This document shows, piece after piece, positions 1,079 through 32,342 of a stretch of 40,597 nt of DNA. The stretch lies in the NCBI GenBank assembly GCA_903870815.1, contig CAIQEI010000048.1, positions 1 through 40,597 of the forward strand. Direction: 5' to 3'. Source of the DNA: an uncultured Verrucomicrobia subdivision 3 bacterium (GTDB taxonomy: Bacteria > Verrucomicrobiota > Verrucomicrobiia > Limisphaerales > UBA11358). The position numbers and the translations under genes were made by a program. Numbering within the stretch: position 1 is the first letter of the stretch; the number at the start of each line of letters is the position of its first letter. A model generated the notes under the pieces. The model saw nothing but the letters and a program-made list of their open reading frames with translations, did not search any database and had not been told where the DNA came from.

Positions 1079-1177
1079 ACAAAAAAGAAAACAATAGTGG
1101 CAGCAATCTTGGTTAGAAGGTCGTTGTTGTTCAGTCAAATCTTAAGGGTGCTCCTTTGTATTGATACGGTCTTTCTG

Positions 1178-4123: not shown

Positions 4124-4181
4124 TTCGATTAATCGCCCCCGTAAAATACCGCTTGCATTACCATTCGAGTTGCGTTAATAC

Positions 4182-4197
4182 TTAACCATATGGTTAA
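4182..4197. promoter_or_regulatory. Perfect 16-bp palindrome over the arsR-type start codon (probable operator)
   Basis: TTAACCATATGGTTAA equals its own reverse complement and includes the ATG (4190) of the ArsR-type gene. Winged-helix repressors of this family bind such dyads as dimers. The position suggests the repressor blocks its own transcription or translation start and so controls the downstream SRPBCC cluster. This is inferred from sequence symmetry only. Confidence 0.6.
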
Positions 4198-4534: not shown

Positions 4535-5019
4535 GCACAACAACAACCATCAATGACAACAACATCAAACTTCAACTCACCCGCGTTTTCGACGCGCCGC
4601 GCGAACTAGTCTTCAAGGCGTGGACGGACGCGTCCCAATTCCAGCAGTGGTTCGGGGCGGCAGCGTGCGACGGAGGGGCGTTGCAATCGGTCAAGGTGGA
4701 CGCACGCGTCGGTGGTAAATATCGTCTCCAGGTGCGGCGCGCCGATGGCGAATACTTCACGACCGTAGGAACTTATCGCGAGGTGAAGCCGCCAGAACGC
4801 CTGGTCTTCACCTGGGCGTTTGAAAAGGACGGTAGCGGCGATGAATTCGGCGAGGTTGAATCGCCCGAAATGCTGGTGACGATCGAATTTCGCACACGCG
4901 GAAATCAAACTGAATTGACGCTGACGCACGAGAAATTTGGGTCCGTCGAAAGCCGCGACCGGCACCAAGATGGCTGGACGCGTTGCCTCAACGAACTGGG
5001 AAAATTCGTCGGAAAATAA
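4531..5019 (+). CDS. SRPBCC (AHSA1-type) domain protein
   Basis: 162 residues forming one START/Bet v1-like domain of the AHSA1 (activator of Hsp90 ATPase homologue 1) family: 'LTRVFDAPRELVFKAWTDASQFQQWFG' at the N-terminus, 'VGGKYRLQVRR', 'YREVKPPERLVFTWAFE' and the C-terminal 'DGWTRCLNELGKF'. These small hydrophobic-ligand-binding folds have no assigned catalytic role. In bacteria they often sit behind an ArsR-type regulator, as here. It overlaps that gene by 4 bp and ends 4 bp before the next AHSA1 gene, so the three form an operon. Confidence 0.88.
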   Translation: MSTTTTINDNNIKLQLTRVFDAPRELVFKAWTDASQFQQWFGAAACDGGALQSVKVDARVGGKYRLQVRRADGEYFTTVGTYREVKPPERLVFTWAFEKDGSGDEFGEVESPEMLVTIEFRTRGNQTELTLTHEKFGSVESRDRHQDGWTRCLNELGKFVGK

Positions 5020-5023
5020 AAAT

Positions 5024-5959
5024 ATGAGCGCGCAAACCGGAGGCGAAAATCTGGTCGGCAAGGAATATATCATCACGCGCGAATACGACGCGACGCGTGA
5101 ACTTGTCTGGCAGGCCTGCACCGAGGCCAAACAACTGGCGCAATGGTGGGGGCCGCGCGGTTTCAGCGCGCCGGTCTGTGAATGGGACGCGCAGCCGGGC
5201 AACACGATTTACGTCGTTATGCGCGCGCCCAACGGAATGGATTTTCCCATGGGCGGGAAATTTCACGAAGTTGTGGCGCCGGAGAAATTGGTGACGACCA
5301 CAGGCGCGCTGGATGAAAAAGGCAATTTGATGTTTGAATTTCATCACACGCTGACTTTGGTCGGGCAGCCCGATGGTAAAACTACACTCACGATGCGTTC
5401 GCGGCTCCTCAACGTGTTCTCGCCCGAAGCATTCAAATACGTTGGTGGATTCGAGGCCGGCATGACGCAAAGTTTGGAGCGGCTTGGAGAACTTGTTTCC
5501 AGCACGACCGACCGCGAGATTGTGATCACGCGCGAGTTCGCCGCGCCGCGCGAACTGGTCTGGGAGGCGATGACGAATCCGAAACACGTCGTGAACTGGT
5601 GGGGGCCGCGCGGCTTTAGCACCACCATTGAGACGATGGATTTCCGCGTCGGCGGGATTTGGAAACACGTCATGCGTGGGCCGGACGGCGTGAATTATCC
5701 GAACCACAGCGTGTTCAAGGAAATCGTAACGCCGGAGTGCATCGTGTTTTCGCAAGGCGGCCGGCGCGAAGGCGGACCGGGCGTGAGTTTTGTGTCCACC
5801 TGGTCTTTCGAGAAACTGGCCGCAGACAAAACGCGCGTAACCATTCGCATGGTTTTCCCGTCGGCATCGGAGCGCGATTTGGTTGTGAAGGAATTCGGTG
5901 CGATCGAAGGCGGCAAACAGACGTTGGAAAGACTTGGCGAATATTTGGTGAAAATGTAA
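5024..5959 (+). CDS. Tandem double-domain SRPBCC (AHSA1-type) protein
   Basis: 311 residues made of two complete AHSA1-like domains in series. Domain 1 (about 15-155) begins 'ITREYDATRELVWQACTEAK' and has 'QWWGPRGFSAP'. Domain 2 (about 165-310) begins 'ITREFAAPRELVWEAMTNPK' and has 'NWWGPRGFSTT'. Each ends with the family's 'LERLGE' helix, so the gene looks like an internal duplication. The start at 5024 is chosen because it lies 4 bp after the previous stop and the domain follows it directly; the frame is open further upstream but only inside the preceding gene. Function is unknown beyond a ligand-binding fold. Confidence 0.87.
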   Translation: MSAQTGGENLVGKEYIITREYDATRELVWQACTEAKQLAQWWGPRGFSAPVCEWDAQPGNTIYVVMRAPNGMDFPMGGKFHEVVAPEKLVTTTGALDEKGNLMFEFHHTLTLVGQPDGKTTLTMRSRLLNVFSPEAFKYVGGFEAGMTQSLERLGELVSSTTDREIVITREFAAPRELVWEAMTNPKHVVNWWGPRGFSTTIETMDFRVGGIWKHVMRGPDGVNYPNHSVFKEIVTPECIVFSQGGRREGGPGVSFVSTWSFEKLAADKTRVTIRMVFPSASERDLVVKEFGAIEGGKQTLERLGEYLVKM

Positions 5960-5970
5960 CCTTGCGCGCC

Positions 5971-6357
5971 ATGAAAAAATATCTGCCTTGCATCGCTGGC
6001 GTGTTACTGGGGCTTTGCTTCCTGATGGCGAGCATCCCGGTTTTGTTCAACCTCGTCAAAATCCCATCGCTGCCCGAAGGCACGCCGGCCTGGCATTTCA
6101 TGCAGGCGTTTGTCCCGACGGGCTATATCAGGTTTGTGAAAATGTTCGAGTTTGTCGGAGGCATCGTCGTGATGATTCCGCGTTTGCGAAACATCGGACT
6201 GCTGCTGCTCGGCCCGGTCATCGTGAACATCATCGCGTTCCACGTCCTGGTCGATGACCCGAAACATCTGGTCAATCCGATCCTGGACATAATCATCGCC
6301 TGTGCCCTGTATCTCCTCTGGGACGCCCGGAAAAAATTCTCCGGCCTGCTAAATTAA
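5971..6357 (+). CDS. DoxX-like small membrane protein
   Basis: 128 residues with four predicted hydrophobic helices: about 5-28, 50-70 (around 'GYIRFVKMFEFVGGIVVMI'), 72-92 ('LLLLGPVIVNIIAFHV') and 100-118. Size, helix layout and the 'FVGGIVVMIPR' segment fit the DoxX/SURF4-like family, whose role is poorly defined. The start at 5971 follows the previous stop by 11 bp. The gene sits inside the SRPBCC cluster, an arrangement common for this family, and is probably co-transcribed. Confidence 0.72.
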   Translation: MKKYLPCIAGVLLGLCFLMASIPVLFNLVKIPSLPEGTPAWHFMQAFVPTGYIRFVKMFEFVGGIVVMIPRLRNIGLLLLGPVIVNIIAFHVLVDDPKHLVNPILDIIIACALYLLWDARKKFSGLLN

Positions 6358-6377
6358 AATAATAAAAAAGGAAATTT

Positions 6378-6905
6378 ATGCTGCCGATTCTGCTCGCGCT
6401 CGCGTTCATCGCCATAATCATTTTCGTCGTCATCGCCGGGCGACCGGATGAATTCATCGTCACACGTTCGATAAAGATCTCCGCCCCGCCGGAAAAAGTC
6501 TTCCCGCACGTCAACGACCTGCACCAATGGGAGGCGTGGTCGCCGTGGGCCAAGCTAGACCCGAATGCCAAGAATTCATTTGCCGGCCCGGATTCCGGCC
6601 CGGGCGCGGCGATGTCGTGGGACGGCAACAAAAAAATCGGTGCGGGACGCAGGACGATCACCGGGAGCACGGTCAATGAACAGATCCGGTTTAAATTGGA
6701 ATTTATAAGACCGTTCCAGGCCACCAATATCGCCGAATTCACCTTCAAACCGGAAAGTAATGAAACCGTCTTGACGTGGAGCATGTCCGGCAGAAACAAT
6801 TTTTTCATCAAGGCATTCGGCCTGTTTATGAACTGCGACCAGATGATCGGCGGCGATTTTGAAAAGGGATTGGCCACGATGAAATCCGTGGCGGAAGCCG
6901 TCTGA
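6378..6905 (+). CDS. Membrane-anchored SRPBCC (polyketide cyclase-like) protein
   Basis: 175 residues. The first ~20 form a hydrophobic anchor ('LPILLALAFIAIIIFVVIAG'). The remainder is an SRPBCC domain: 'VTRSIKISAPPEKVFPHVNDLHQWEAW', 'PWAKLDPN', 'GPGAAMSWDGN', 'TWSMSGRNNFFIKAF' and 'DFEKGLATMK'. A run of AT-rich sequence with AAGGAAA (about 6368-6374) lies just before the ATG and probably serves as ribosome binding site. It is the fourth SRPBCC domain of the cluster and the only one tied to a membrane, which suggests it works at the inner membrane surface or in the periplasm. Confidence 0.85.
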   Translation: MLPILLALAFIAIIIFVVIAGRPDEFIVTRSIKISAPPEKVFPHVNDLHQWEAWSPWAKLDPNAKNSFAGPDSGPGAAMSWDGNKKIGAGRRTITGSTVNEQIRFKLEFIRPFQATNIAEFTFKPESNETVLTWSMSGRNNFFIKAFGLFMNCDQMIGGDFEKGLATMKSVAEAV

Positions 6906-17904: not shown

Positions 17905-18519
17905 ATGGGCCGTGTAAGTGATGCCAAACAAAGATTAATGGATGCCGTGCTGGAGTTGATCTGGTCCGGATCTTATGGCAGCACGACCATTGATCATATC
18001 TGCGAGCGGGCCGGCGTCAAAAAAGGCAGTTTTTATTACTTCTTCGATTGCAAATCTGAGCTGGCAGTTGAAGCCTTTGAGGACAGCTGGAAAGCCCGCC
18101 GCATCGAATTGGATTCGATTTTTTCGCCCATAGTTGCCCCCCTGGAACGCCTGCAGAAATACTGCGATTTTGGCTATGATTTCCAACGTGAAATCAAAAC
18201 CAAGCACGGTCATGTACTGGGTTGCCCGCAGGTTTCGCTCGGATCGGAAATCTGCACCCAGGAGGAGGGCTTGCAGAAAAAAATCCAGGAAATAATGGAT
18301 CAAAAGCGCAAGTATATCGAATCTGCCATCCGCGATGCGCAGGCTGCCGGGGTGATTGAGGTGCCCGATGCCGGGGCCAAGGCCCGGATGATTCTGGCCT
18401 ATTATCAAGGGTTGCTAACCCAGGCCCGAATCCAAAATGATGTTGAAGTTTTGCGCGAGGCTTACAGCGGGATGCTCACCATTCTTGGAGTGAAGGAAAA
18501 AGAAGCCGTGGCCGCCTGA
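17905..18519 (+). CDS. TetR/AcrR-family transcriptional regulator
   Basis: 204 residues. The N-terminal helix-turn-helix is clear: 'AKQRLMDAVLELIWSGSYGSTTIDHICERAGVKKGSFYYFFDCKSELAVEAFEDSW'. The C-terminal ligand-binding part includes 'GHVLGCPQVSLGSEI', typical of the TetR_C group that often regulates efflux pumps. The RND adaptor and pump genes follow on the same strand, and similar operator sequences precede both this gene and that operon, which supports repression of both. The inducer is unknown. Confidence 0.9.
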   Translation: MGRVSDAKQRLMDAVLELIWSGSYGSTTIDHICERAGVKKGSFYYFFDCKSELAVEAFEDSWKARRIELDSIFSPIVAPLERLQKYCDFGYDFQREIKTKHGHVLGCPQVSLGSEICTQEEGLQKKIQEIMDQKRKYIESAIRDAQAAGVIEVPDAGAKARMILAYYQGLLTQARIQNDVEVLREAYSGMLTILGVKEKEAVAA

Positions 18520-18937: not shown

Positions 18938-20065
18938 ATGAAAATTCATTTAAACTTCTTTACCACCATGGTCGCATTATCGGCCGGGTTGCTCGTCACC
19001 GGATGCAGTCGGCAGGCGGCCCAGCAAAGTCCGCCGCCGCCGACCGTAACGGTGGCACCCGTGGAACAAAAGGATATTGTCGAGTGGAGCGAATTCACCG
19101 GGCGGACCGAGCCGGTGGAGTCGGTGGAAATCCGCCCGCGCACTTCCGGGTATATCCAGGAAGTGCGGTTCAAATCCGGGCAATTGGTGAAGAAGGGCGA
19201 TGTGCTATTTGTCATTGATCCGCGCTGGAACCAGGCGGTGTTCGACCAGCGCCAGGCCGAATATGAACAAGCCCGCAGCGAGGCTGGCCGCACCGACAAG
19301 CTTCTGGCCAACAACGCCATTTCAGTCGAAGAGGCGGGCGCGCGCAAATCCCGGGCTGAGGTGGCGAAAGCCGCGTTGGAGTCGGCCCGGCTGGATCTGG
19401 AGTTTACCGAAGTCCGCGCGCCCATTGCCGGGCGCGTGAGCCGCGCGCTTTTGACGGAGGGCAATTATGCCAGCGGTAATGCCGGGTCCGCCTCGCTGCT
19501 CACCACGGTGGTTTCCGTCAATCCGGTTTATGTTAATGCGGACATTGATGAGGACACGCTGTTGAAGTTTAACAAGCTGGTGGATGCCAAAAAGCTGGGA
19601 ACGACTGAAGGCGGCAAGATTCCCGTCGAATTACAACTCGCCGATGAATCCGATTTTCCGCACAAAGGTTCGATCGAGTCGTTTGACAACCGGCTGGATC
19701 CAAACACGGGCAGCATTCTTCTGCGCGCGGTGTTTGGCAACGATGATTACCGCATCGTGCCCGGGTTGTTTGCCCGCATCCGCATTCCCTTGAGCGACCG
19801 TCATCCGGCGCTGCTGGTGGTTGAACGCGCCATCGGCACGGATCAGGCGAATAAATTTGTGCTCACGCTCACGCCGACGAACACGGTGCAATATCAGGCC
19901 GTGGAACTTGGCCCGGTCGTGGACGGCCAGCGCATCGTGCGCTCGGGTCTGAGTGCCGGCGAAAAAATTGTCGTCAACGGTCTTTCCCATGTGCGACCGG
20001 GAATGTCGGTGACACCACAATTGGTAATGGGCAACAGCGCCACGCTGAAAATGGCCATCCGGTAA
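18938..20065 (+). CDS. RND efflux periplasmic adaptor (membrane fusion protein, AcrA/MexA type)
   Basis: 375 residues. A lipoprotein signal ('VALSAGLLVTGC', Cys23) ties it to the inner membrane. It has the standard adaptor order: 'SVEIRPRTSGYIQEVRFKSGQLVKKGDVLFVIDP' (first lipoyl half), an alpha-hairpin ('QRQAEYEQARSEAGRTDKLL...'), 'LEFTEVRAPIAGRVSRALLTEGNYA' (second lipoyl half), then beta-barrel and membrane-proximal domains ending 'VVNGLSHVRPGMSV'. It would link the RND pump to the outer-membrane channel. Both partners are encoded by the next gene as one polypeptide. Confidence 0.94.
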   Translation: MKIHLNFFTTMVALSAGLLVTGCSRQAAQQSPPPPTVTVAPVEQKDIVEWSEFTGRTEPVESVEIRPRTSGYIQEVRFKSGQLVKKGDVLFVIDPRWNQAVFDQRQAEYEQARSEAGRTDKLLANNAISVEEAGARKSRAEVAKAALESARLDLEFTEVRAPIAGRVSRALLTEGNYASGNAGSASLLTTVVSVNPVYVNADIDEDTLLKFNKLVDAKKLGTTEGGKIPVELQLADESDFPHKGSIESFDNRLDPNTGSILLRAVFGNDDYRIVPGLFARIRIPLSDRHPALLVVERAIGTDQANKFVLTLTPTNTVQYQAVELGPVVDGQRIVRSGLSAGEKIVVNGLSHVRPGMSVTPQLVMGNSATLKMAIR

Positions 20066-20133: not shown

Positions 20134-23100
20134 ATGAACGTTTCACATTATTTCATCAAACGCCCAATCTTCGCCGGCGTACTATCCATCGCAGTTTTTA
20201 TCATGGGACTGCTGGCGATGTTCAAGTTGCCGATCAGCGAATATCCCGAAGTCGTGCCGCCGACGATTGTGGTGAAGGCGACGTATCCAGGCGCGAATCC
20301 CAAGACCATCGCCGAAACCGTGGCCTCGCCGCTGGAACAGGCCATTAACGGCGTCGAAGGGTCGCTCTACCTGTTCTCGCAGGCGACCGGCGACGGCGTG
20401 ATGACCCTGACCGTTACGTTTAATCTTGGCACCGATCCCGACAAGGCGCAGGTGCAGGTGCAGAACCGGGTGGCACAGGCATTGCCAAAACTGCCGGAGG
20501 AAGTCCGCAACCTCGGCGTCACGACCACCAAGCAATCGCCGGATTTGACGATGGTCGTCCACTTGTTTTCACCCGATAACCGTTACGACAAAGTTTATAT
20601 CCGCAACTACGCCACGCTGCAGGTGAAGGATGTGCTCGCGCGCATTCCCGGCGCGGGCGACGTCGAACTCTTCGGCTCCGGAGATTATTCCATGCGCATC
20701 TGGCTGAACCCGGACAAAATTGCCGCGCGAAATCTTACCGCCAGCGATGTGGTCGCCGCGATTCGCGAACAAAACGTGCAAGTTGCCGGCGGCGTCATCG
20801 GCCAGCAGCCCGTCAGCAGCCCGGTGAATTATGAGATGCAGGTGAATGTCAAAGGCCGCCTGATCTCCGAGGAGGAATTTGGCAACATCATCGTCAAGAC
20901 CGGACCGAATGGTGAAAAAACCTTGCTCAAGGATGTGGCGCGCATCGAGCTCGGCGCGGGCAGTTACGCGCTCCAGTCGTTGCTGGACAATAAGACGGCG
21001 GTGGCAATCCCGATTTTCCAGTCGCCCGGCGCGAACGCCTTGGAACTTTCCAAAAACGTCCGCGCGGCAATGAAGGAGCTCAAGAAGAACTTTCCCGAAG
21101 GCCTGGACTACGACGTCGTCTATGACCCGACGGTTTTCGTGCGACATTCGATTGAAGCCGTCATCCATACGCTGTGCGAGGCCATTCTGCTCGTCGTGCT
21201 GGTCGTCATTCTATTCCTGCAAACGTGGCGGGCGGCGATCATCCCGCTCGCCGCCGTTCCCGTTTCGCTCATCGGGACCTTCGCGCTCATGCTCGCGTTC
21301 GGTTTCAGCATCAACGCGCTGTCGCTCTTCGGACTCGTGCTGGCGATCGGCATCGTGGTCGATGACGCCATCGTCGTCGTGGAAAATGTGGAGCGAAATA
21401 TCGCGCGCGGCTTATCTTCATACGACGCTGCCAGACAAGCCATGCACGAAGTGACCGGGCCGATTGTGGCGACAGCCCTGGTGCTGTGTGCCGTGTTCGT
21501 GCCCACGGCGTTCATCAGCGGTTTGACCGGACAGTTTTACAAGCAGTTCGCGCTGACGATCGCCATCTCAACCGTCATTTCCGCCTTCAACTCGCTGACG
21601 CTTTCGCCGGCATTGTGCGCGCTATTACTCAAGGATCATCACGCGCCGAAAGACTGGCTGTCCCGCGTAATGGATAATATGTTCGGCTGGTTTTTCCGCC
21701 CGTTCAACCGCGTGTTTGCCTGGGCCGGCGAAAAATACTCCGCCGGCGTCGGCAACGTTCTCCGGAAGTGCGCCATCGCCCTCTTGGTTTACGGCGGACT
21801 GGTTTTGCTGACCGGCTGGAGCTTTAGCAAGGTGCCGACCGGCTTCGTGCCGACGCAAGACAAGCAATATCTCGTCGCCTTCGCGCAACTGCCGGATGGG
21901 TCGTCGCTGGACCGCACCGAGGCGGTCATTCGCAGGATGTCCGATATTGGTTTGAAACAACCGGGCGTGCAATCGGCGGTGGCCTTTCCCGGCCTGAGCA
22001 TCAGCGGCTTCAGCGTGGCCCCCAACCAGGGCATTGTCTTCTTCACGCTGAACCCCTTTGAAGAACGCACCACACCGAATCTGAGCGGCCCCGCCATCAC
22101 GGCCGCGTTGAATCAAAAACTGAGCGTGATCCAGGATGCCTTCGTCCTCGCCGTGCCACCGCCGGCGGTCATGGGGCTCGGCACCATTGGCGGGTTCAAA
22201 CTCTACGTGGAGGACCGCGCCGATCTCGGTTATGACGCGCTGTATCAAAATCTGCAGACCGTCATTGGCAAAAGCTACCAGTCTCCCGCCCTCGCCGGCA
22301 CGTTCTCCGGATTCACCATCAACGTGCCGCAACTGGACGCGGACGTGGACCGCGAGAAGGCGAAAACCCAGGGCATCCCGCTGCAAAATCTGTTCGAAAC
22401 GATGCAGATTTATCTCGGCTCGCTTTATGTGAATGATTTCAACCGCTTCGGCCGCACTTATGAAGTCATCGCGCAGGCGGATGCGCCGTACCGCGCGCAC
22501 GCCGAGGACATCACGCGGTTGAAAACGCGGAATGATCGGGGCGAAATGGTGCCGCTCGGGGCTGTCGTAAAAGTGACGGAATCGCACGGGCCCGACCGCG
22601 TGATGCGTTACAACGGCTATCCGGCGGCGGAAATCAACGGCGCGCCCGCGCCCGGGTACAGCTCCGGCCAAGGCGAGGCCTCGATCGCAAAGCTGGCGGC
22701 GGACAATCTGCCGCGCGGGATGACCTACGAGTGGACCGACCTCACCTACCAACGCATCCTCTCCGGCAACACGGTGGTTTATGTCGGGCCGCTGTGCATT
22801 CTGCTGGTGTTCCTCGTGCTGGCCGCACTCTACGAAAGCTTCCGGCTGCCGCTCGCCATTATTCTGATTTTGCCAATGTGTCTGCTTTGTGCGATCACCG
22901 GTGTCTGGCTCAAGGGTGGGGACAATAATATCTTCACACAAATCGGCTTGATCGTGCTGGTCGGCCTTGCGTGTAAGAACGCAATCTTGATCGTCGAGTT
23001 TGCCAAGCGCAAGCAGGACGAAGGCATGGCGCCATTCGCCGCCGCCATCGAGGCGTGCCGGCTCCGTTTGCGCCCGATCCTCATGACCAGCATCGCGTTC

Positions 23101-24759
23101 ATCGCGGGCGTGTTTCCGCTCGTGGTTTCCAAAGGCGCCGGTGCCGAAATGCGCCAGGCGATGGGCATTGCGGTTTTCTCGGGCATGATTGGGGTCACGC
23201 TCTTCGGCTTGTTTTTGACGCCCGTTTTCTACGTCACCCTGATGAAACTTGGCTTGAAGAACAAACCGGCGACGGCAGTTAAAAACGTGCTGCTTGGTTC
23301 GAGCGCCGCCGCCACGGGAATCGTCACCCTCGCCCTGCTGTTCACGGTGGTTTCGGCGAATGCGGGTGTGCTGACCATTGGCCCCGATTACCAGCCGCCG
23401 AGCAATTCCGTGCCGGCAAATTACAAGGCTGTTGATTTCGGCTCTTGGAAGGAAGGCCAACCTTTGGATAATGTGCCGAAAGGAAATTGGTGGGAGCTGT
23501 TTGCTGACACCAACCTGAACGTGCTGGAAGCGCAGGCGGTGGCCGCCAATCAACAACTCAAAGCCGCCGTCGCCCGGGTGGATCAGGCGCGGGCCACGGC
23601 GCGCGTCGCCCGCAGCCAGTTGATGCCCGGTTTGAGCTTGGCCCCGAGCTACTCGCGCGAAGGCTATTCGCCCAATGCGAATCCCAGTTTCGGAAACATC
23701 ACGGCGAACACATTCAACGCGCCGCTGGACTTGAGCTATGAAGTGGATTTGTGGGGCCGCATCCGCCGGCTCTTTCAGGGCGCGCGCGCCGACGCGCAGG
23801 CGTCGCTGGCGGATTATTACAACGTCCTGCTCACGCTCCAGTCCGACATGGCGCAAAATTATTTTGCCCTGCGTTCCCTTGACGCGGAAATCGCCACGGT
23901 CAACGGCACCATCACCCTGCGCCACGAACAGGTGCGGCTCGTGCGCAGCCGGCTGGAAGGCGGCATCGGTAGTGAACTCGACGTGGCCCAGGCGGAAACC
24001 GAGCTGGCGACCACCGAAGCCGAGGCGGCCTCGCTCGCGCATCGTCGCGATGAGTTGGAAAATGCCATCGCAATTCTGGTCGGCGAAAACCCGTCCCGCT
24101 TCAAACTCGCCGCCTTGGACGATCCGAATTGGAACCCGCAGCCGCCGGGAATTCCCGCCGGTCTGCCTTCGGATTTGCTGGAGCGCCGTCCCGATGTAGC
24201 TCAGGCCGAACGTCAGCTGGCCTCGGCCAACGCCGGGATCGGCGTCGCCAAAGCCGCGTTTTTCCCGGTGCTGACGCTAACCGGCTCGGCCGGATATATA
24301 AGCGGTGACCTTTCCTCATTGTTCAACTGGGACAGCCGCACCTGGTCGATCGGGCCGAGCCTTTCCCTGCCTATATTTACGGGCGGGCGCAACCGGGCAA
24401 ATTACCAACACTCGCAGGCGGCGTTCCGGGAATCGGTCGCGCTCTATCGCCAGCAAGTCTTGGTCGCCTTTGGGGACGTGGAGGACAGTCTCTCCGGAAT
24501 TTATCATTTTGCCGTCCAGGCGGAGGCTCAGCAGCGCGCCGTGACCAGCGCCCGCCGCGCCTCGGAACTCGCCACCGACCGATATCGTTCCGGCATCGTG
24601 GCCTACATCGAAGTTGTCGATGCGAGTCGCGACACTCTGATGGCGGAACGCGCCAATGCCCAGCTCGCCGGCCAGCGCCTGATTGCTTCGGTCCAATTGA
24701 TCAAGGCGCTTGGCGGCGGGTGGAGCAGCCAACAGATTCTGGCGCGCGCTGCCCCCTAA
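20134..24759 (+). CDS. RND efflux pump (HAE1/AcrB type) fused to outer-membrane factor (NodT/OprM type)
   Basis: 1541 residues in one frame. Residues 1-1045 are a complete AcrB-like permease: 'FIKRPIFAGVLSIAVFIMGLLA', the proton-relay Asp pair in 'GIVVDDAIVVVENV' (410-411), and the matching Lys948 in 'GLACKNAILIVEFAK'. After the last helix ('FGLFLTPVFYVTLMKLGL') comes a new hydrophobic segment (1052-1074) ending in 'SANAG', a signal-peptidase-I-like site after Ala1077. Then a full outer-membrane factor starts with 'IGPDYQPPSNSVP' (normally found at the mature N-terminus) and has both OMF repeats ('SYEVDLWGRIRR', 'LLERRPDVAQAERQLASANAGIGVAKAAFFPVL'). The usual lipobox Cys is missing. A GTG at 23287 (residue 1052) could restart translation, but no ribosome binding site is seen. 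Confidence 0.92.
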   Translation: MNVSHYFIKRPIFAGVLSIAVFIMGLLAMFKLPISEYPEVVPPTIVVKATYPGANPKTIAETVASPLEQAINGVEGSLYLFSQATGDGVMTLTVTFNLGTDPDKAQVQVQNRVAQALPKLPEEVRNLGVTTTKQSPDLTMVVHLFSPDNRYDKVYIRNYATLQVKDVLARIPGAGDVELFGSGDYSMRIWLNPDKIAARNLTASDVVAAIREQNVQVAGGVIGQQPVSSPVNYEMQVNVKGRLISEEEFGNIIVKTGPNGEKTLLKDVARIELGAGSYALQSLLDNKTAVAIPIFQSPGANALELSKNVRAAMKELKKNFPEGLDYDVVYDPTVFVRHSIEAVIHTLCEAILLVVLVVILFLQTWRAAIIPLAAVPVSLIGTFALMLAFGFSINALSLFGLVLAIGIVVDDAIVVVENVERNIARGLSSYDAARQAMHEVTGPIVATALVLCAVFVPTAFISGLTGQFYKQFALTIAISTVISAFNSLTLSPALCALLLKDHHAPKDWLSRVMDNMFGWFFRPFNRVFAWAGEKYSAGVGNVLRKCAIALLVYGGLVLLTGWSFSKVPTGFVPTQDKQYLVAFAQLPDGSSLDRTEAVIRRMSDIGLKQPGVQSAVAFPGLSISGFSVAPNQGIVFFTLNPFEERTTPNLSGPAITAALNQKLSVIQDAFVLAVPPPAVMGLGTIGGFKLYVEDRADLGYDALYQNLQTVIGKSYQSPALAGTFSGFTINVPQLDADVDREKAKTQGIPLQNLFETMQIYLGSLYVNDFNRFGRTYEVIAQADAPYRAHAEDITRLKTRNDRGEMVPLGAVVKVTESHGPDRVMRYNGYPAAEINGAPAPGYSSGQGEASIAKLAADNLPRGMTYEWTDLTYQRILSGNTVVYVGPLCILLVFLVLAALYESFRLPLAIILILPMCLLCAITGVWLKGGDNNIFTQIGLIVLVGLACKNAILIVEFAKRKQDEGMAPFAAAIEACRLRLRPILMTSIAFIAGVFPLVVSKGAGAEMRQAMGIAVFSGMIGVTLFGLFLTPVFYVTLMKLGLKNKPATAVKNVLLGSSAAATGIVTLALLFTVVSANAGVLTIGPDYQPPSNSVPANYKAVDFGSWKEGQPLDNVPKGNWWELFADTNLNVLEAQAVAANQQLKAAVARVDQARATARVARSQLMPGLSLAPSYSREGYSPNANPSFGNITANTFNAPLDLSYEVDLWGRIRRLFQGARADAQASLADYYNVLLTLQSDMAQNYFALRSLDAEIATVNGTITLRHEQVRLVRSRLEGGIGSELDVAQAETELATTEAEAASLAHRRDELENAIAILVGENPSRFKLAALDDPNWNPQPPGIPAGLPSDLLERRPDVAQAERQLASANAGIGVAKAAFFPVLTLTGSAGYISGDLSSLFNWDSRTWSIGPSLSLPIFTGGRNRANYQHSQAAFRESVALYRQQVLVAFGDVEDSLSGIYHFAVQAEAQQRAVTSARRASELATDRYRSGIVAYIEVVDASRDTLMAERANAQLAGQRLIASVQLIKALGGGWSSQQILARAAP

Positions 24760-24979: not shown

Positions 24980-25053
24980 ATTTGAACTTGCCCGGCTTTT
25001 GCGCCGCAGCTAGGCTGGGTTTGCGCTTTTTCAGGCGCTTATTTTTTAAGGAA

Positions 25054-25587
25054 ATGCAGACACAAAGCGAATACGGCTACAACTCAAAGATCGAAGGCGA
25101 TGTCGTCCTTACGACCGTTGACGCCGCACTCGCCTGGTTCCGCAAAAATTCCGTCTGGCCCATGCCCATGGGCCTCGCCTGCTGCGCCATCGAATTGATG
25201 GCCGTCGGCGCCAGCCGCTTCGATATTTCCCGCTTCGGTTCGGAGGTGATGCGCTTCTCGCCGCGCCAGGCCGATTGCATGATCGTCGCCGGCACCGTCA
25301 CCTACAAAATGGCCAATGTGCTCCGGCGCATCTATGACCAGATGCCCGAGCCGAAATGGGTCATCGCCATGGGTGCCTGCGCCTCCACTGGTGGCATGTA
25401 TCGCAGCTATGCCGTGTTGCAGGGTGTGGATAAAATCGTACCCGTGGATGTCTATATTGGCGGCTGTCCGCCCCGGCCGGAGGCGGTCCTCGACGCGCTC
25501 ATTAAAATCCAGGAAAAAATCGGCAAACAGCCCATTTTGCAGGGTACCGTCGCCGCGAAATTATTACATCTCGAGGAAAAATCATAA
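25054..25587 (+). CDS. nuoB: NADH-quinone oxidoreductase subunit B
   Basis: 177 residues. This subunit holds cluster N2, which passes electrons to quinone. The ligands are visible: the CC pair in '[11 protein letters not shown]', Cys in '[10 protein letters not shown]' and Cys in '[10 protein letters not shown]'. The ATG at 25054 is taken because the conserved part follows; the AAGGA before it is only 1 bp away, closer than usual. It is the first gene of the operon here: nuoA, which normally precedes it, is absent. Confidence 0.96.
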
Positions 25588-25693
25588 ACCCACCAATGAA
25601 CCACCACCCTTGCATGGCCGTTTTGTCAGGTTGCCTCGTTTCCGGGTTTTCCCTTTTCAACGTTTCAACCGTTCAACGTTTTAACCTCGTTCG
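25588..25693. other. nuoB-nuoC spacer with TTCAACG-type simple repeat
   Basis: This 106-bp gap contains TTCAACG, TTTCAACC, GTTCAACG and TTTTAACC in a row at 25656-25686, an imperfect 7-8-bp tandem repeat. No gene or clear promoter is seen. Confidence 0.6.
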
Positions 25694-26272
25694 ATGACCG
25701 CCCTCGAATCTGCCAATAAAATCAAGGCCAAGTTCGGCGACCTAGTCTCCGAACCGGCGGAGTTTCGCGGCGAAATTTCCGTGAAAGTTTCCGACGCGGA
25801 AAAAATTTTCGACGTATGCAGTTTCGCCAAACAGCAACTTGGCTTTGATTACCTCGTGGATATCAGCAGTGTGGACAATTACGGCACGGATCCTCGCTGG
25901 ACGGTGGTCTATCACCTTCGCGTTATCGATAGCGGGATTGAAATCCGCCTCAAAAACGACGTGAGCGAGGAGAAATCCGAGCTTCCGAGCGTTTTACCCG
26001 TCTGGCGCACTGCCAATTGGCATGAGCGCGAGATTTACGACATGATGGGCATTCGTTTCAGCGGTCATCCCGATTTGCGCCGGATTTTGATGTGGGAAGG
26101 TTATCCCTATTTCCCTTTACGCAAAGACTTTCCCCTGGCCGGCAAGCCATCGGATTTGCCCGGCGTGGCGTTCACCCAGCCGGCGCCGCTGGAAGGCGGT
26201 CCGTTTGTGACCATTCCGAGTGCGGGTGATGCGATTGGCCGCGAACCACGCGTGCGCACGCCCGAAGAATAA
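25694..26272 (+). CDS. nuoC: NADH-quinone oxidoreductase subunit C
   Basis: 192 residues. NuoC (30-kDa subunit) belongs to the connecting part of the peripheral arm. The signature 'WHEREIYDMMGIRFSGHPDLRRILMWEGYPYFPLRKDFPL' (about residues 112-151) is unmistakable. It is separate from NuoD, unlike the fused NuoCD of enterobacteria. It ends 5 bp before nuoD. Confidence 0.96.
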   Translation: MTALESANKIKAKFGDLVSEPAEFRGEISVKVSDAEKIFDVCSFAKQQLGFDYLVDISSVDNYGTDPRWTVVYHLRVIDSGIEIRLKNDVSEEKSELPSVLPVWRTANWHEREIYDMMGIRFSGHPDLRRILMWEGYPYFPLRKDFPLAGKPSDLPGVAFTQPAPLEGGPFVTIPSAGDAIGREPRVRTPEE

Positions 26273-26277
26273 TTTTC

Positions 26278-27549
26278 ATGGCTCAAGTTCAAGACATTGA
26301 AATCCCTGATTCCGCCGCCCGCACGGTCGCGGCGGCGGATGACTTGCAGGACGCCCATGGCGAGAAGATGGTCTTGAACATGGGGCCGTCGCATCCGGCT
26401 ACGCACGGCGTCTTGCGCATTGTGCTGGAACTGGACGGCGAAGTCATCACCAAGGCGGATCCGGACGTGGGTTATCTGCATCGCGGCGACGAAAAAATCG
26501 CCGAGAACATGACCTACACCCAGTTCATCCCTTACACGGATCGGCTGGATTATCTCGCGCCGCTGGCGAACAACGTCGCCTACGCGCTCGCGGTGGAAAA
26601 ACTGCTCGGCATCCACGATAAACTGCCGCCGCGCTGCCAGTACATCCGGGTGATGTGCTGCGAACTGGCCCGCATTTCCGCGCATTTGCTCGGTCTCGGC
26701 GCGTTTGCCATGGACACTGGTGCCGTCACGGTCTTCCTGCTCACGTTCACCGAGCGCGAAAAAATTTACAACCTCGCCGAAGCCGCGAGCGGCGCGCGCC
26801 TGACCACCAGCTACACGCGGATCGGCGGCTTGATGCGCGATGTGCCGCCGACCTGGTGTGATCAAGTCCGCCAGTTTCTCAAGGAATTTGCCGTGGCGCT
26901 CAACGAGGCGGAAACCCTGCTGACGCGCAACCGCATCTGGGTGGATCGTCTGCGCGACCTCGGCGTGGTCTCGAAGGCGATGGCCATCGACTACGGTTTG
27001 AGCGGTCCGAACCTGCGCGGCAGCGGTGTGAACTGGGATTTGCGCAAGAACCAGCCGTATCTCTGTTATAATGATTTAGATTTTGAGGTTGCCCTCGGCT
27101 CAGTCGGCGATTGCTATGACCGTTACCTTGTCCGCATGGAGGAAATGCGCCAGAGCATGCGAATTCTGGAGCAGTGTGTTGACAAGATTCCCGGCGGCGG
27201 CGAAAACCGGTCGCACGAGCCGGTCAACGTGGCCGACGGGAAAATCACCCTGCCGTCGAAATCGAAGGTCATGTCCAGCATGGAGGAACTGATCCACCAG
27301 TTCATGCTCGTGACTGAAGGCGTGAATTGCCCGCCCGGCGAAGTTTATTTCGGGCACGAAAATCCCAAGGGAGAGCTCGGCTTTTACCTCAACAGTCGGG
27401 GCGGCGGCACGCCGTACCGCCTTAAAATCCGCGCCCCTTCTTTTGTGAATTTGAGCATCCTCGGCGAATTGTTGCCCGGCTGCATGATCAGCGACGTGCC
27501 CGTCGTGCTGGGCTCGCTTGACTTTGTGATGGGAGAATCCGACCGATGA
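26278..27549 (+). CDS. nuoD: NADH-quinone oxidoreductase subunit D
   Basis: 423 residues. The 49-kDa subunit lines the quinone pocket with NuoB. Seen are 'MGPSHPATHGVLRIVLELDGE' (with the quinone-site His pair), 'GYLHRGDEKIAENMTYTQFIPYTDRLDY', 'ELARISAHLLGLG' and the C-terminal 'DFVMGESDR'. It shares a 4-bp ATGA overlap with nuoE, evidence of translational coupling. Confidence 0.97.
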   Translation: MAQVQDIEIPDSAARTVAAADDLQDAHGEKMVLNMGPSHPATHGVLRIVLELDGEVITKADPDVGYLHRGDEKIAENMTYTQFIPYTDRLDYLAPLANNVAYALAVEKLLGIHDKLPPRCQYIRVMCCELARISAHLLGLGAFAMDTGAVTVFLLTFTEREKIYNLAEAASGARLTTSYTRIGGLMRDVPPTWCDQVRQFLKEFAVALNEAETLLTRNRIWVDRLRDLGVVSKAMAIDYGLSGPNLRGSGVNWDLRKNQPYLCYNDLDFEVALGSVGDCYDRYLVRMEEMRQSMRILEQCVDKIPGGGENRSHEPVNVADGKITLPSKSKVMSSMEELIHQFMLVTEGVNCPPGEVYFGHENPKGELGFYLNSRGGGTPYRLKIRAPSFVNLSILGELLPGCMISDVPVVLGSLDFVMGESDR

Positions 27550-28061
27550 GTTTTACCGCCACCAAAGAACTGGAAGCCGAGGTTGACGAGCTGATCACGC
27601 ATTATCCCGTGAAACGCGCCGCGTCGCTCATGGTGCTGCATGCCATCCAGGAAAAGTTCGGCTGGATTTCGTCGGAGGCGGTGCAGTGGACGGCGAAGAA
27701 GCTGGAGCTTCAGCCGATCAATGTCTTTGAGATTCTGACTTTTTATCCCATGCTCCGGCAGCAGCCGATGGGCAAGTATCAGATCAAGGTCTGCCGCACG
27801 TTGAGCTGCGCGCTCGGCGGCGCGTATGAACTGCATAAGCATTTCTGCGACAAGCTGGGTTTGGACGCGCACAAGCACGGCGCGCAGACGACCAAGGATG
27901 GCAAATTCACCGTGGAATTTGTGGAATGCCTCGCCAGTTGTGGCACTGCGCCGGTGATCATGTGCAATGACGCATTTTACGAGGATGTCAGCCACGAGGA
28001 GGCAGATGAAATATTACGGGGCGCAAACGCCATGGTTGCCCGACATGGATTTGAACCATGA
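27546..28061 (+). CDS. nuoE: NADH-quinone oxidoreductase subunit E
   Basis: 171 residues. The 24-kDa thioredoxin-like subunit binds [2Fe-2S] cluster N1a with Cys in 'CRTLSCALGG' and 'VECLASCGTAP', all four present. The last eight residues or so ('VARHGFEP') are read from the antisense of a tRNA gene that overlaps the end of this gene, so the natural C-terminus has been set by the tRNA sequence. The gap to nuoF is 93 bp and is filled by that tRNA and its promoter. Confidence 0.95.
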   Translation: MSFTATKELEAEVDELITHYPVKRAASLMVLHAIQEKFGWISSEAVQWTAKKLELQPINVFEILTFYPMLRQQPMGKYQIKVCRTLSCALGGAYELHKHFCDKLGLDAHKHGAQTTKDGKFTVEFVECLASCGTAPVIMCNDAFYEDVSHEEADEILRGANAMVARHGFEP

Positions 28062-28106
28062 CAAACAGATTCAGAGTCTGCTGTGCTACCGTTACACCAT
28101 CGGGCA
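28033..28106 (-). tRNA. tRNA-Gln (anticodon CUG), CCA encoded
   Basis: Read on the minus strand from 28106. The acceptor TGCCCGA pairs with TCGGGCA; the D arm is GTGT/GCAC with a GG-containing loop; the anticodon arm GCAGA-CTCTGAA-TCTGT gives anticodon CTG; the T arm is CATGG-TTCAAAT-CCATG; the discriminator is A, followed by an encoded CCA (28035-28033). All stems pair without mismatch except G-U pairs, so it looks functional. It lies antisense to the complex I operon and overlaps the last 29 bp of nuoE. Confidence 0.92.
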
Positions 28107-28120
28107 GGATGGGACCGTTT

Positions 28121-28148
28121 AAACTAGAGAATTTTATTTGAGAGTCAA
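28121..28148 (-). promoter_or_regulatory. Probable promoter of the tRNA-Gln gene
   Basis: On the minus strand: TTGACT (28148-28143), 16-bp spacer, TAGTTT (28126-28121). A start about 7 bp later would lie roughly 8 nt before the tRNA 5' end. It fits in the 48 bp between the tRNA and the nuoF start codon. Confidence 0.55.
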
Positions 28149-28154
28149 GTTGCT

Positions 28155-29588
28155 ATGGCGCAGGAATACAAATTGATTTTGAAGCACATCGATGAACCCG
28201 ATTACACCCGGGACATCGAGTGCTATTTGCGTCATGGCGGCTACGACTCGCTGAAGAAAGCGCTCGCCTTCCCGGCCCGGACCCTGCCGGACGGCAAAAC
28301 CCAGTCGCCGCAGGAACAGCTTCGGCAGGAAGTGATGACGTCCGGTTTGCGCGGCCGCGGCGGGGCGGGATTTTCCTGCGGCCTGAAATGGAGCTTCGTG
28401 GACCGCAAGAGCGGCAAGCCGGTTTACCTGATTTGCAACGCCGACGAATCCGAGCCGGGCACGTTCAAGGACCGGCAGATCATGCACAAGGACCCCCACC
28501 AGTTGATCGAGGGCATGATCATCTCCTGCTATGCGAACGATGTGAAGCTTGCCTACATCTACATCCGCGGCGAAATGGTGGATGGCGCAAAAATTCTGGC
28601 CCAAGCGCTGAAGGAGGCCCGCGCGAAAAATTTCCTCGGCAAAAACATCCTCGGTACCGGCTACGATCTCGAGATTCACGTTCATCGCGGCGCGGGCGCC
28701 TACATCTGCGGCGAGGAGACTGGCCTCATTGAATCGCTCGAAGGCAAACGGCCGTATCCCCGCATCAAGCCGCCGTACTTTCCGGCCGTGCTCGGCCTGT
28801 GGATGTGCCCGACCATTGTCAACAACGTCGAGACGCTCTGCAATGTGAAGCATATCGTCGCGCTGGGCGGTGCCGAATTCGCCAAGCTCGGCACGCCCAA
28901 CAACACCGGCACCCGCATCGTCAGCTTGAGCGGCCACGTGCAAAACCCCGGCTACTACGAAATAGAAGTCGGCAAGGCGACGCTTGGCGAGCTCATCAAC
29001 GATCCGCAATTCGGCGGCGGCCTGCGCCGTGGGCGCAAATTGAAGGCCATCATTCCCGGCGGTTCGTCCTCGAAAATCCTGAAGGCCGGTGAAAAATTCA
29101 AGCTCAAGAAAAAGGACTCCGAGGGCCGGGAAATTTTGGTCGAGACCGACATGCTTGATCTGCCTTACGATTTTGACTCGCTTGCCCAGGCCGGCACCAT
29201 GAGCGGTTCCAGCGCGATCATCGTCATGGACGACAGCGTGGACATCGTCGCGGCGCTGGCGAACCTTTCCGAGTTTTACGCGCATGAGAGCTGCGGCCAG
29301 TGCACGCCCTGCCGCGAGGGTTCGCTCTGGATGAACAAGGCGCTGCACCGCCTCACGCACGGCGAAGGCCGCTCGCAGGACGCGGATTATCTGGTGAAGA
29401 TCGCAGACAATATCCCCGGCGGCCGCACGATTTGCGCGTTCGGGGAGGCCTGCTCCTGGCCGGTGCAAAGTTTCGTCGCGAAGTTCAAGGACGAATTTAT
29501 CGCGAAGGGCGCGGCCGACGAGGCGCGCCGTGCCAAGGAGGGCGCCGCGCCCGCAGAAACCAAAAAACTGGCCGCCGCGCACCACTGA
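28155..29588 (+). CDS. nuoF: NADH-quinone oxidoreductase subunit F
   Basis: 477 residues. The 51-kDa subunit binds NADH, FMN and cluster N3. Visible are the NADH motif 'GLRGRGGAGF' (64-73), the FMN motif 'NADESEPGTF' (95-104), and the cluster N3 Cys set 'ESCGQCTPCREG' (about 377-388) with a further Cys in 'FGEACSW'. It follows the tRNA insertion and is 5 bp before nuoG. A C-terminal Ala/Lys-rich tail is longer than usual. Confidence 0.97.
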   Translation: MAQEYKLILKHIDEPDYTRDIECYLRHGGYDSLKKALAFPARTLPDGKTQSPQEQLRQEVMTSGLRGRGGAGFSCGLKWSFVDRKSGKPVYLICNADESEPGTFKDRQIMHKDPHQLIEGMIISCYANDVKLAYIYIRGEMVDGAKILAQALKEARAKNFLGKNILGTGYDLEIHVHRGAGAYICGEETGLIESLEGKRPYPRIKPPYFPAVLGLWMCPTIVNNVETLCNVKHIVALGGAEFAKLGTPNNTGTRIVSLSGHVQNPGYYEIEVGKATLGELINDPQFGGGLRRGRKLKAIIPGGSSSKILKAGEKFKLKKKDSEGREILVETDMLDLPYDFDSLAQAGTMSGSSAIIVMDDSVDIVAALANLSEFYAHESCGQCTPCREGSLWMNKALHRLTHGEGRSQDADYLVKIADNIPGGRTICAFGEACSWPVQSFVAKFKDEFIAKGAADEARRAKEGAAPAETKKLAAAHH

Positions 29589-29593
29589 TTTCA

Positions 29594-31279
29594 ATGTCCA
29601 CCGCCGCCACAACTGAAACGAAGCCCGCGCCGGCCGCGATTGAGAAGATCAAAGTCAAGGTGGACGGGCGCGAAATCGAAGTGCCGCGCCTCACCGCCGA
29701 CTGGTCGGGCAAACTCACGCCCACGACGATGATTCAGGCGTGCGAACTCGCCCAGACCGAGGTGCCGCATTATTGCTGGCATCCGAAGTTGCCGGTCGTC
29801 GGCAACTGCCGCATGTGCCTCGTTGAATTCGGCACGCCCGCGATGGGCCCTGACCGCAAGCCGGTGATGAATCCCGATGGCACGCCGAAGATCGCCAAGT
29901 CGCCGCGTCCCGCGATTTCCTGTGCAACCCCGATTTCCCCGGGAATGGAAATTTACACGAAAACGCCGGCGGTGAAACAGATGCGCGAAGGCGTCCTCGA
30001 ATCCCTACTCATCAATCATCCGCTCGATTGCCCGATTTGCGACCAGGCTGGCGAATGCAAGTTGCAGGAATATTCGGTGGATTACGGCCAGAGCGCGAGC
30101 CGCTTCGTCGAGGCGAAGGTTCACAAGCCGAAGGCCGTTGACCTCGGACCGCGCATCCTGCTCGACGCCGAACGCTGCATCCTGTGCACGCGCTGCATCC
30201 GCTTCACCCGGGACATTGCCGGTGACGACGCGCTCGGCATCATCAATCGCGGCAGCTATAACACGATCGCGACGTTTCCAGGCCTGCCGTTTGATAACAA
30301 TTACACCCTCAACACCGTGGACATCTGTCCCGTAGGCGCGCTCACGTCGAAGGATTTCCGGTTCAAGATGCGCGTCTGGTTTCTCAAGGAGACCAAGAGT
30401 GTCTGCACCAGTTGCGCCACCGGCTGCAATATTCTCGTCAGTTCGCGCGAGGAAGTCGTCCAGCGCTACACTCCGCGCGAAAACGACGCCGTCAACGGCC
30501 CGTGGATGTGCGACGCCGGCCGCCTGAATTACAAGTGGATCGGCCGCGAAGACCGGTTGAAAACCGTGTTGGTGAGCGGCCGGAAATCCTCCTGGACCGT
30601 CGCCCTCAATGAGATCTCTGACCGGCTGAAAAAAGCCCCTGCCGGTTCCGTCGCGATGGTCGCCTCGGCACGGCAGACGAACGAGGAACTCTGGCTGCTT
30701 TCAAAATTGAAAGCCAAGCTCGGTGCCACTAGCGATTCCATCGCGCGGGAAGGCCAAGCCGATAACCTGCTCGTCAGCGCGGACAAAAATCCCAACACCA
30801 ACGGCGCGCGGCTCACCGGAATTTGTTTCACCGAAATCGGCTCCAATCTCCCGGCGATCGCCGGCGGTATTGCGAGCGGCAAAATCAAGACGCTGATTGT
30901 TTTCGGCGAAGATGTGACGAAGCATGGTCTGGGCGCGGATTTGTTGGGCCGGTTGGAAACGCTCATCGTCAGCGATATATTGCCGAACGAAACGACCAAG
31001 CTGGCGCACTACGTTCTGCCCGGCTGCGCGCACGCGGAAAAGCGCGGCTCGTTCACCAGCACCAAGGGCCGGGTCCAGAAATTCATGAAGGCCGTGGAAC
31101 CGCCCGGCGACGCCCGCGCCGAATGGGAATATTTGCACGACCTCGTTCACCATGTCACCGGCCAGAACGGCTTCGTGACCATCGAGGGTCTGTTCAACCA
31201 GATGGCGAAAGAAGTGCCCGCGTTCAACGGTTTGACGTGGGCGGCACTCGGCGATGCCGGCGTGACGGTGCAAATTTAA
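29594..31279 (+). CDS. nuoG: NADH-quinone oxidoreductase subunit G (short form)
   Basis: 561 residues, shorter than most NuoG (about 670-900). Clusters: [2Fe-2S] N1b Cys in 'PHYCWHP', 'NCRMCLVEF' and 'ISCATP'; [4Fe-4S] 'HPLDCPICDQAGEC'; [4Fe-4S] 'CILCTRCIRF' with 'VDICPVGAL'; and a further CxxCxxxCx27C set ('CTSCATGC' ... 'WMC'), the pattern of cluster N7. The molybdopterin-like C-terminal region is reduced to about 230 residues. The ATG at 29594 is chosen because the ferredoxin-like domain starts there; the frame is open upstream inside nuoF. Confidence 0.95.
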   Translation: MSTAATTETKPAPAAIEKIKVKVDGREIEVPRLTADWSGKLTPTTMIQACELAQTEVPHYCWHPKLPVVGNCRMCLVEFGTPAMGPDRKPVMNPDGTPKIAKSPRPAISCATPISPGMEIYTKTPAVKQMREGVLESLLINHPLDCPICDQAGECKLQEYSVDYGQSASRFVEAKVHKPKAVDLGPRILLDAERCILCTRCIRFTRDIAGDDALGIINRGSYNTIATFPGLPFDNNYTLNTVDICPVGALTSKDFRFKMRVWFLKETKSVCTSCATGCNILVSSREEVVQRYTPRENDAVNGPWMCDAGRLNYKWIGREDRLKTVLVSGRKSSWTVALNEISDRLKKAPAGSVAMVASARQTNEELWLLSKLKAKLGATSDSIAREGQADNLLVSADKNPNTNGARLTGICFTEIGSNLPAIAGGIASGKIKTLIVFGEDVTKHGLGADLLGRLETLIVSDILPNETTKLAHYVLPGCAHAEKRGSFTSTKGRVQKFMKAVEPPGDARAEWEYLHDLVHHVTGQNGFVTIEGLFNQMAKEVPAFNGLTWAALGDAGVTVQI

Positions 31280-31280
31280 A

Positions 31281-32342
31281 ATGAACTGGAATTTCATTAT
31301 TTTCAGTTTGGTCAAGATCGCCATCGCCATCGGCGTGGTGCAGGGCATCGTCATGTATTCTGTGCTGGCCGAGCGTAAGATTTCGGCGTGGATTCAGGAC
31401 CGGGTTGGCCCCAACCGCACCGCGCCGCCGTTTGTGAAATTTATTCCGGTGCTCGGGCCGTTTTTGACCCGGCTGGGGTTTTTTCAGCCGCTGGCGGACG
31501 GGTTGAAATTTCTGGTCAAGGAGGATTTTACCCCGGCCGGCGTGAAGCAGATTTATTTCTGGCTCGCGCCGGCAGTCACCGTGATCCCGGCGATGCTGAC
31601 GATTGCCGTGATTCCATTTGGTTCGCAAATGGGCGCGCAGAAAATGGTCATTGCGGACTTGAACGTCGGCATCCTTTACACGTTCGGCATCGTTTCGATG
31701 GGCGTCTATGGCATCGTGCTGGCAGGCTACGCGGCAAACTCCAAATATCCGTTTTTCGGCGGCATCCGCTCCAGCGCCCAGATGATTTCGTATGAAATTT
31801 CCATGGGCATGTCGGTCATCCCCGTGCTGCTCATCGTCGGCAATCTAAATTTGAGCCAGATCATCAACTGGCAGTCCGGGCACGGCTGGCTGTTCCTCTA
31901 TGCGCCCCTGTCCTTCATCATCTTCATGGTCGCCTCGTTTGCGGAAACGAACCGGACGCCGTTTGATTTGCCGGAGGCGGAAACCGAATTGGTCGGCGGT
32001 TATCACACGGAATACAGCTCGATGAAATTCGCGCTGTTTTTCCTCGCGGAATATTCGAACATGGTTTCCTCGTCGGCGATGATGGTGACGCTGTTTTTCG
32101 GCGGGTGGACGCTGCCGTTCTGGGGTCTCGACCAGCCGGCGCACTCGCTGGCGATGGGCATCGCCCAGATTTTTGTCTTCCTCGCGAAGATGCTCTTTTT
32201 CATGGTGGTCTTCATCTGGGTGCGCTGGATGTTCCCGCGTTTTCGTTATGACCAATTGATGGACCTGGGCTGGCGGCGGTTTTTGCCGCTCGCGTTGGTG
32301 AACATTTTAATCACGGCCGTCTGGCTGTGGCTGAGGAGTTGA
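31281..32342 (+). CDS. nuoH: NADH-quinone oxidoreductase subunit H
   Basis: 353 residues, about eight membrane helices. NuoH joins the membrane and peripheral arms and forms part of the quinone channel. Seen are 'LAERKISAWIQDRVGPNR', 'ISYEISMGMSVIPVLL' and 'ETNRTPFDLPEAETELVGGYHTEYS'. It begins one base after the nuoG stop and ends one base before nuoI, so it is tightly coupled. Confidence 0.97.
   Translation: MNWNFIIFSLVKIAIAIGVVQGIVMYSVLAERKISAWIQDRVGPNRTAPPFVKFIPVLGPFLTRLGFFQPLADGLKFLVKEDFTPAGVKQIYFWLAPAVTVIPAMLTIAVIPFGSQMGAQKMVIADLNVGILYTFGIVSMGVYGIVLAGYAANSKYPFFGGIRSSAQMISYEISMGMSVIPVLLIVGNLNLSQIINWQSGHGWLFLYAPLSFIIFMVASFAETNRTPFDLPEAETELVGGYHTEYSSMKFALFFLAEYSNMVSSSAMMVTLFFGGWTLPFWGLDQPAHSLAMGIAQIFVFLAKMLFFMVVFIWVRWMFPRFRYDQLMDLGWRRFLPLALVNILITAVWLWLRS

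Follow-up and report, generated by a model that had tools for sequence, protein, structure and literature searches.

A fused RND pump and outer-membrane channel gene in Verrucomicrobia that probably encodes a polyprotein divided by signal peptidase

Tripartite efflux systems of the MexEF-OprN and OqxAB type pair an HAE-1 permease of the resistance-nodulation-division (RND) class with a NodT-type outer-membrane factor (OMF). Pump and channel are both trimers, and the C terminus of the RND permease lies in the cytosol after insertion into the inner membrane. A lipidated N-terminal Cys behind a lipobox is common among NodT/OprM-type OMFs, but not universal. Another relevant precedent is FbcH of Bradyrhizobium, a cytochrome b/c1 polyprotein that is split by signal peptidase. 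Here we describe a gene in which an RND permease and an OMF share one reading frame. It is located in a stretch of 40,597 nucleotides (hereafter the window; contig CAIQEI010000048.1 of assembly GCA_903870815.1) from an uncultured Verrucomicrobia subdivision 3 bacterium. The gene very likely encodes a natural polyprotein that, judging from its sequence, would first be inserted into the membrane and then be divided by signal peptidase, giving a pump of about 116 kDa and a channel of about 50 kDa.

The frame comprises 1541 codons plus a stop codon, with no internal stop, and holds both families in complete form, with the MexF/OqxB-type permease first and the NodT/OprN-type OMF second (Table 1), as an earlier note on this DNA had proposed. 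The first half gives a full-length match to ACR_tran (PF00873, Pfam; residues 4-1036, 1175 bits) and exceeds the cut-off for RND_permease_1 (NCBIfam NF000282.2; residues 4-1037, 1455 bits versus 1250), and the proton-relay Asp-Asp and Lys of HAE-1 permeases are present in the translation (VVDDAIVVVENVER and GLACKNAILIVEFA). The second half matches outer_NodT (NCBIfam TIGR01845; residues 1082-1529, 418 bits versus a cut-off of 210) and, in two stretches, OEP (Pfam), the stronger of which covers residues 1347-1527. Among solved sequences, those closest to the first half are efflux pumps (8yr0, 7wlv, 8zxs and 7cz9), and those closest to the second half are OprM, SilC, OprJ, CusC and OprN. Similarly, an AlphaFold2 model of residues 1028-1541, with a mean predicted local distance difference test (pLDDT) score of 70.6, matches OprN and OprM, and the top Foldseek matches of the OMF half are OprN structures (5azp and 5iuy; template modeling score about 0.8 by target).

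The resemblance to MexEF-OprN and OqxAB is therefore close in several respects: the permease is 68-69% identical to Pseudomonas MexF-type proteins, the OMF is at about 33% and has OprN as its best fold match, and an adaptor gene lies upstream. However, every Pseudomonadota match that was checked has a separate gene for the pump and for the channel, whereas the window has one gene. Furthermore, an HAE-1 chain should end in the cytosol after transmembrane helix 12, but here a linker, a predicted 13th helix and the OMF continue.

The junction reads MKLGLKNKPATAVKNVLLGSSAAATGIVTLALLFTVVSANA/GVLTIGPDY, with ANA at residues 1075-1077, followed by G1078 and by GPDY from residue 1083. The earlier note had recognized a segment resembling a signal peptide that ends in ANA-G, like a signal peptidase I (SPase I) site, and this assignment is borne out by a (-3,-1) signature that is conserved in relatives. 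The site was also said to stand directly before IGPDY; in fact, four residues (GVLT) intervene. Across 50 fused proteins, the region preceding the hydrophobic stretch is basic (mean of 4.4 Lys/Arg versus 0.7 Asp/Glu). These proteins were drawn from clade A (37 proteins, including that of the window) and clade B (13 proteins), as defined on a tree of RND halves, together with a third fusion, L202; one member (L200) was missed by the automatic pattern and was inspected by eye. Among the 32 type I junctions, which were anchored on the GPDY motif, Ala occupies position -1 in 31 and position -3 in 23, Gly or Asn occupies position +1 in 30, and position -2 ranks with the most variable columns (the commonest residue reaches 19%). 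Other fusions carry a lipobox: three members of clade A (L006, L170 and L172) have a lipobox-like TGC in place of A-x-A, clade B keeps Gly-Cys in 13 of 13, and L202 has an intact VSGC. Thus, the earlier suggestion that the lipobox Cys has been lost holds for the window protein and most of its clade, but not for all fusions.

An identical pattern search behind the pumps' own transmembrane segments served as a control. A-x-A follows the helix at 22 of 37 junctions (59%) versus 10 of 410 RND transmembrane segments (2%), and a lipobox does so at 9 of 12 junctions versus 0 of 148 segments. The ratio of nonsynonymous to synonymous differences (pN/pS, pooled over overlapping pairs) is 0.47 for the linker, 0.13 for the RND half and 0.22 for the OMF half, and the linker value indicates that this segment is translated and constrained at the protein level. 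By these comparisons, the linker changes rapidly, yet as protein, with the -3/-1 Ala residues or the lipobox Cys as its conserved part. Such fixed positions amid rapid change form the pattern of a cleaved signal peptide, which is not expected of a structural tether or a neutral spacer. The conserved n-, h- and c-regions and the peptidase signature are also what would be looked for in a split polyprotein of the FbcH kind. Both FbcH and the window protein begin with a polytopic inner-membrane protein and continue through an internal signal sequence into an exported second subunit. FbcH belongs to a respiratory complex, however, and its second subunit stays in the inner membrane, whereas the OMF would be bound for the outer membrane.

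When the 155-residue junction was used as a query against 293 genomes of the window's order, matches spanned both sides in many families. The open frames of the matched stretches were checked independently of the search tool and duplicate loci were removed, which left 51 non-redundant frames of the 53 that hold both halves, plus one (L198) that is truncated by a contig end. The fusion is therefore present in at least 51 of the 293 genomes, across 19 family codes, and one copy (L188) sits in a single-contig genome of 4.7 Mb. Single-protein encoding of pump and channel thus occurs in many soil Verrucomicrobia. A search of related genomes had been proposed in the earlier note, and the relatives prove to be fused too, with no stop or frameshift at the junction. 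No fusion was found in 388 genomes of the phylum sample outside the order, where two long frames (L203 and L204) have a stop that separates the genes. The MexF-type matches that were listed for 299 Pseudomonadota genomes, in which the gene pair is often adjacent, likewise included no fusion that survived inspection. Candidates that were set aside include N-terminal frame extensions or ordinary genes (G945, G969, G841, G893 and G939 in Pseudomonadota, and G686, G018, G005 and G274), pairs with a stop between the two genes, whose open-frame length had been overstated (G484, G487 and G214), and long OMF frames whose extra length is noise, with the OMF frame running on across an RND or adaptor gene that is separate and read in another frame (G025 and G052). 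At L211:325-3525 in genome G018, the pump gene is followed by a frame resembling a major facilitator superfamily transporter, with no OMF in that position.

The fusions are not all of one descent. Clade B proteins are about 57% identical to the window protein in the RND half and about 31% in the OMF half, and the two clades are separated by unfused genes on the RND-half tree. L202 (positions 1819-6378; genome G177, of the window's genus) belongs to another RND subfamily, with an RND half that is 30% identical; a further RND gene lies directly upstream of it. As judged from these relationships, the fusion arose at least three times, in two MexF-type clades and in one other RND subfamily.

A parallel arrangement exists in Bacteroidota. 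On a plasmid of Hymenobacter sp. DG01 (NZ_CP040937.1, L227:5911-10263), CusA/CzcA and TolC are fused in one coding sequence, and twelve more examples (L229-L240) come from Hymenobacter, Adhaeribacter, Spirosoma, Pontibacter, Haliscomenobacter, Runella, Flavobacterium, Chryseobacterium and Bernardetia. All are single coding sequences of 1439-1492 amino acids that are annotated as plain RND permeases, with no mention of the fused OMF; for instance, WP_139926179.1 is named only "CusA/CzcA family heavy metal efflux RND transporter". As in the window, RND permease, polar linker, hydrophobic segment, A-x-A-like site and OMF follow one another, and all 13 junctions have a cleavage-like site. Ala stands at position -1 in 12 of the 13, and Gln at position +1 in all 13. 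Gln at +1 corresponds to the SPase I "Q-rule" of Bacteroidetes (PMC5837995), so that the predicted sites of these fusions obey the rule of their own phylum. Unlike the Verrucomicrobia proteins, they contain a metal-type (HME) RND permease and an OMF of another subfamily, their adaptor gene lies downstream and their +1 residue is Gln rather than Gly or Asn. The window protein falls outside this type, since its RND half scores far below the CusA/CzcA cut-off (336 versus 701 bits) and its +1 residue is Gly. Because RND type, OMF subfamily, adaptor position and +1 residue all differ, the Bacteroidota fusions likely had an independent origin. An export-type peptidase signature is thus seen in each of two unrelated pump families, one per phylum, and we regard this as the strongest in silico evidence that the internal site is used.

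Searches of the open-access literature, with subscription papers outside their reach, found no paper on RND-OMF fusions, on internal signal peptides of such proteins, on RND fusions of Verrucomicrobia or on the FbcH polyprotein, an absence that carries little weight. The fusion architecture itself can already be seen in public annotation, and FbcH is a precedent for split polyproteins.

Under the polyprotein reading, the ribosome would make permease and OMF as one chain, as the open frame and the protein-level selection on the linker suggest. The anatomy of the junction implies that the basic n-region would stay inside while the 20-residue hydrophobic segment enters Sec as an outgoing 13th helix. 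The conserved cleavage signatures indicate that SPase I would then cut behind ANA, at residue 1077, and that Lgt and signal peptidase II would act instead on fused relatives with a lipobox; the host genome encodes SPase I at two loci and one LspA. The predicted cut would leave one extra helix on the pump, and this signal peptide might remain as a tail helix or be degraded. The freed OMF would trimerize in the outer membrane and assemble with the pump and with the MexE-like adaptor from the upstream gene into an ordinary tripartite pump. Computed masses are 116.0 kDa for residues 1-1077, 113.4 kDa for residues 1-1050 and 50.1 kDa for residues 1078-1541. Each translation event would deliver equal numbers of pump and channel, and the 1:1 ratio anticipated in the earlier note is a sensible one because both are trimers. 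Several points tell against this reading. The junction is weak in the AlphaFold model (pLDDT below 50), and cleavage, topology and localization are all inferred. Also, the fusion is dispensable, since unfused relatives are nested in the tree.

The competing explanation that survives best concerns benefit and not mechanism. A stop codon between in-frame neighbors might simply have been lost at zero benefit, with the OMF's own signal peptide still exporting and freeing the channel, so that the fusion drifts in and out. This course of events is compatible with everything seen, and we consider it possible, if short of probable. In two unfused cases, a single stop codon precedes the OMF, which keeps to the same frame and has an ATG and a lipobox signal peptide of its own (PAHA, stop, SIEGDYLLMKIFMF...LLAGC in L176; SH, stop, MNPKPFF...FAGC in L201), and in a third (L027) the stop and start codons overlap (ATGA). 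Fused and unfused genes are intermixed on the tree, with at least nine changes of state when two rows of unclear state are excluded, although the details are uncertain because the tree comes from a quick search with supports only from the Shimodaira-Hasegawa-like approximate likelihood ratio test. At L213:1995-5369, a MexF-type pump has a signal-peptide-like tail (AIATGAAILLLLAVVIMGAHAAG) followed by an unrelated short tail and no OMF; this is probably a decayed fusion that dropped the OMF and kept the signal peptide. However, the fused state has persisted over large divergence, recurs with this same pair of genes and is also seen in Bacteroidota. The lack of fusions among the listed Pseudomonadota matches, despite frequent adjacency, also fits poorly with neutral loss of a stop, but differences in operon spacing could explain it as well.

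A second alternative is that an internal translation start or re-initiation yields a separate OMF and that the long frame is incidental. Many members do have an in-frame ATG, GTG or TTG upstream of the hydrophobic region, such as the window's ATG of MKLGLKNK. This codon is part of the pump's last conserved stretch, however, and is also found in several unfused genes. Moreover, the frame stays open and constrained. Four lipobox members of clade B (L190, L192, L195 and L200) have no ATG, GTG or TTG from the pump end to the hydrophobic region, and none of the candidate starts in the window is accompanied by a Shine-Dalgarno match, so that internal initiation is excluded as a general mechanism. 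Overall, we regard this explanation as improbable.

The earlier note had left the choice between a polyprotein and a permanent tether across the periplasm. A single polypeptide whose hydrophobic segment could be a stable 13th transmembrane helix is formally suited to the latter, in which the chain would never be cut. Yet the destination of the OMF is the far side of the periplasm (PMC13082787), and when the OMF is aligned to OprM, the remaining periplasm would be unbridgeable unless the OMF unfolds. The conserved -1/-3 Ala or lipobox Cys would also be needless. The tether is thus highly improbable, and the SPase I signature or lipobox, together with the +1 Gln of Bacteroidota, strongly favors the polyprotein. 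An assembly or sequencing artifact, or a decaying pseudogene, has almost no chance of being correct: the relatives are mostly metagenome-assembled genomes, but dozens of independent assemblies share the fusion, one of them a single-contig genome, and both halves are under strong purifying selection with their catalytic residues present.

Table 1. Positions in the window of the fused gene, its parts and its upstream neighbors
Feature	Position	Strand	Basis
Fused RND-OMF gene, 1541 aa	20134..24759	+	Fusion present in at least 51 of the 293 genomes sampled from the order
RND permease part, MexF/OqxB type, residues 1-1037	20134..23244	+	Profile matches; motifs VVDDAIVVVENVER and GLACKNAILIVEFA
Basic, polar linker on the cytosolic side, residues 1038-1056, putative n-region of the internal signal peptide	23245..23301	+	Lys/Arg versus Asp/Glu counts
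Hydrophobic helix, putative h-region, residues 1057-1076; would be a 13th transmembrane helix until cleavage	23302..23361	+	Hydropathy; helix in AlphaFold2 model, low confidence
Predicted SPase I site ANA/G, cut between residues 1077 and 1078	23356..23367	+	Conserved signature
Predicted mature OMF, NodT/OprN type, residues 1078-1541	23365..24756	+	outer_NodT profile; fold matches
Periplasmic adaptor, MexE-like RND_mfp, third pump component	18938..20065	+	Profile match
TetR-family regulator, probable local repressor	17905..18519	+	Profile match

With the adaptor and TetR genes upstream of the fused gene, the locus needs only two structural genes to encode a complete tripartite pump. An antisense open frame of 805 codons (21625-24042, minus strand) lies opposite the fused gene and probably owes its openness to the codon usage of the sense gene. 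A complex I (nuo) operon begins on the same strand at 24982, about 220 bases past the fused gene, and homologs of nuoB, nuoC, nuoD, nuoF, nuoG and nuoH lie within 24982-32342. Elsewhere in the window (1097-4123), a protein of 1008 amino acids with AMP-binding, phosphopantetheine carrier and thioesterase domains resembles a single module of a nonribosomal peptide synthetase.

The selected benefit of the arrangement may be 1:1 coupling, or there may be none, with the fusion a tolerated loss of a stop codon. A broader proposal, which we consider unlikely, is that RND pump operons repeatedly became polyproteins split by signal peptidase because pump and channel then emerge as a pair at a single Sec translocon and cleavage sets the timing. 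Before its release to the outer membrane, the OMF, still uncut and anchored in the inner membrane, would be a short-lived assembly intermediate that meets adaptor and pump.

There are several reasons why these genes deserve attention. In a tripartite pump, one trimer of the inner membrane has to find one of the outer membrane, and little is known of how cells match their numbers and bring them together. A natural polyprotein would fix the ratio at 1:1 and would offer a ready system for asking whether OMFs pass to the pump during export. The findings also suggest that an internal signal peptide behind a 12-helix transporter is still readable as a type I or type II signal, and that this is so in two phyla. 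Finally, because the Bacteroidota products bear only a plain RND permease label in RefSeq, pump inventories miss the fused OMF.
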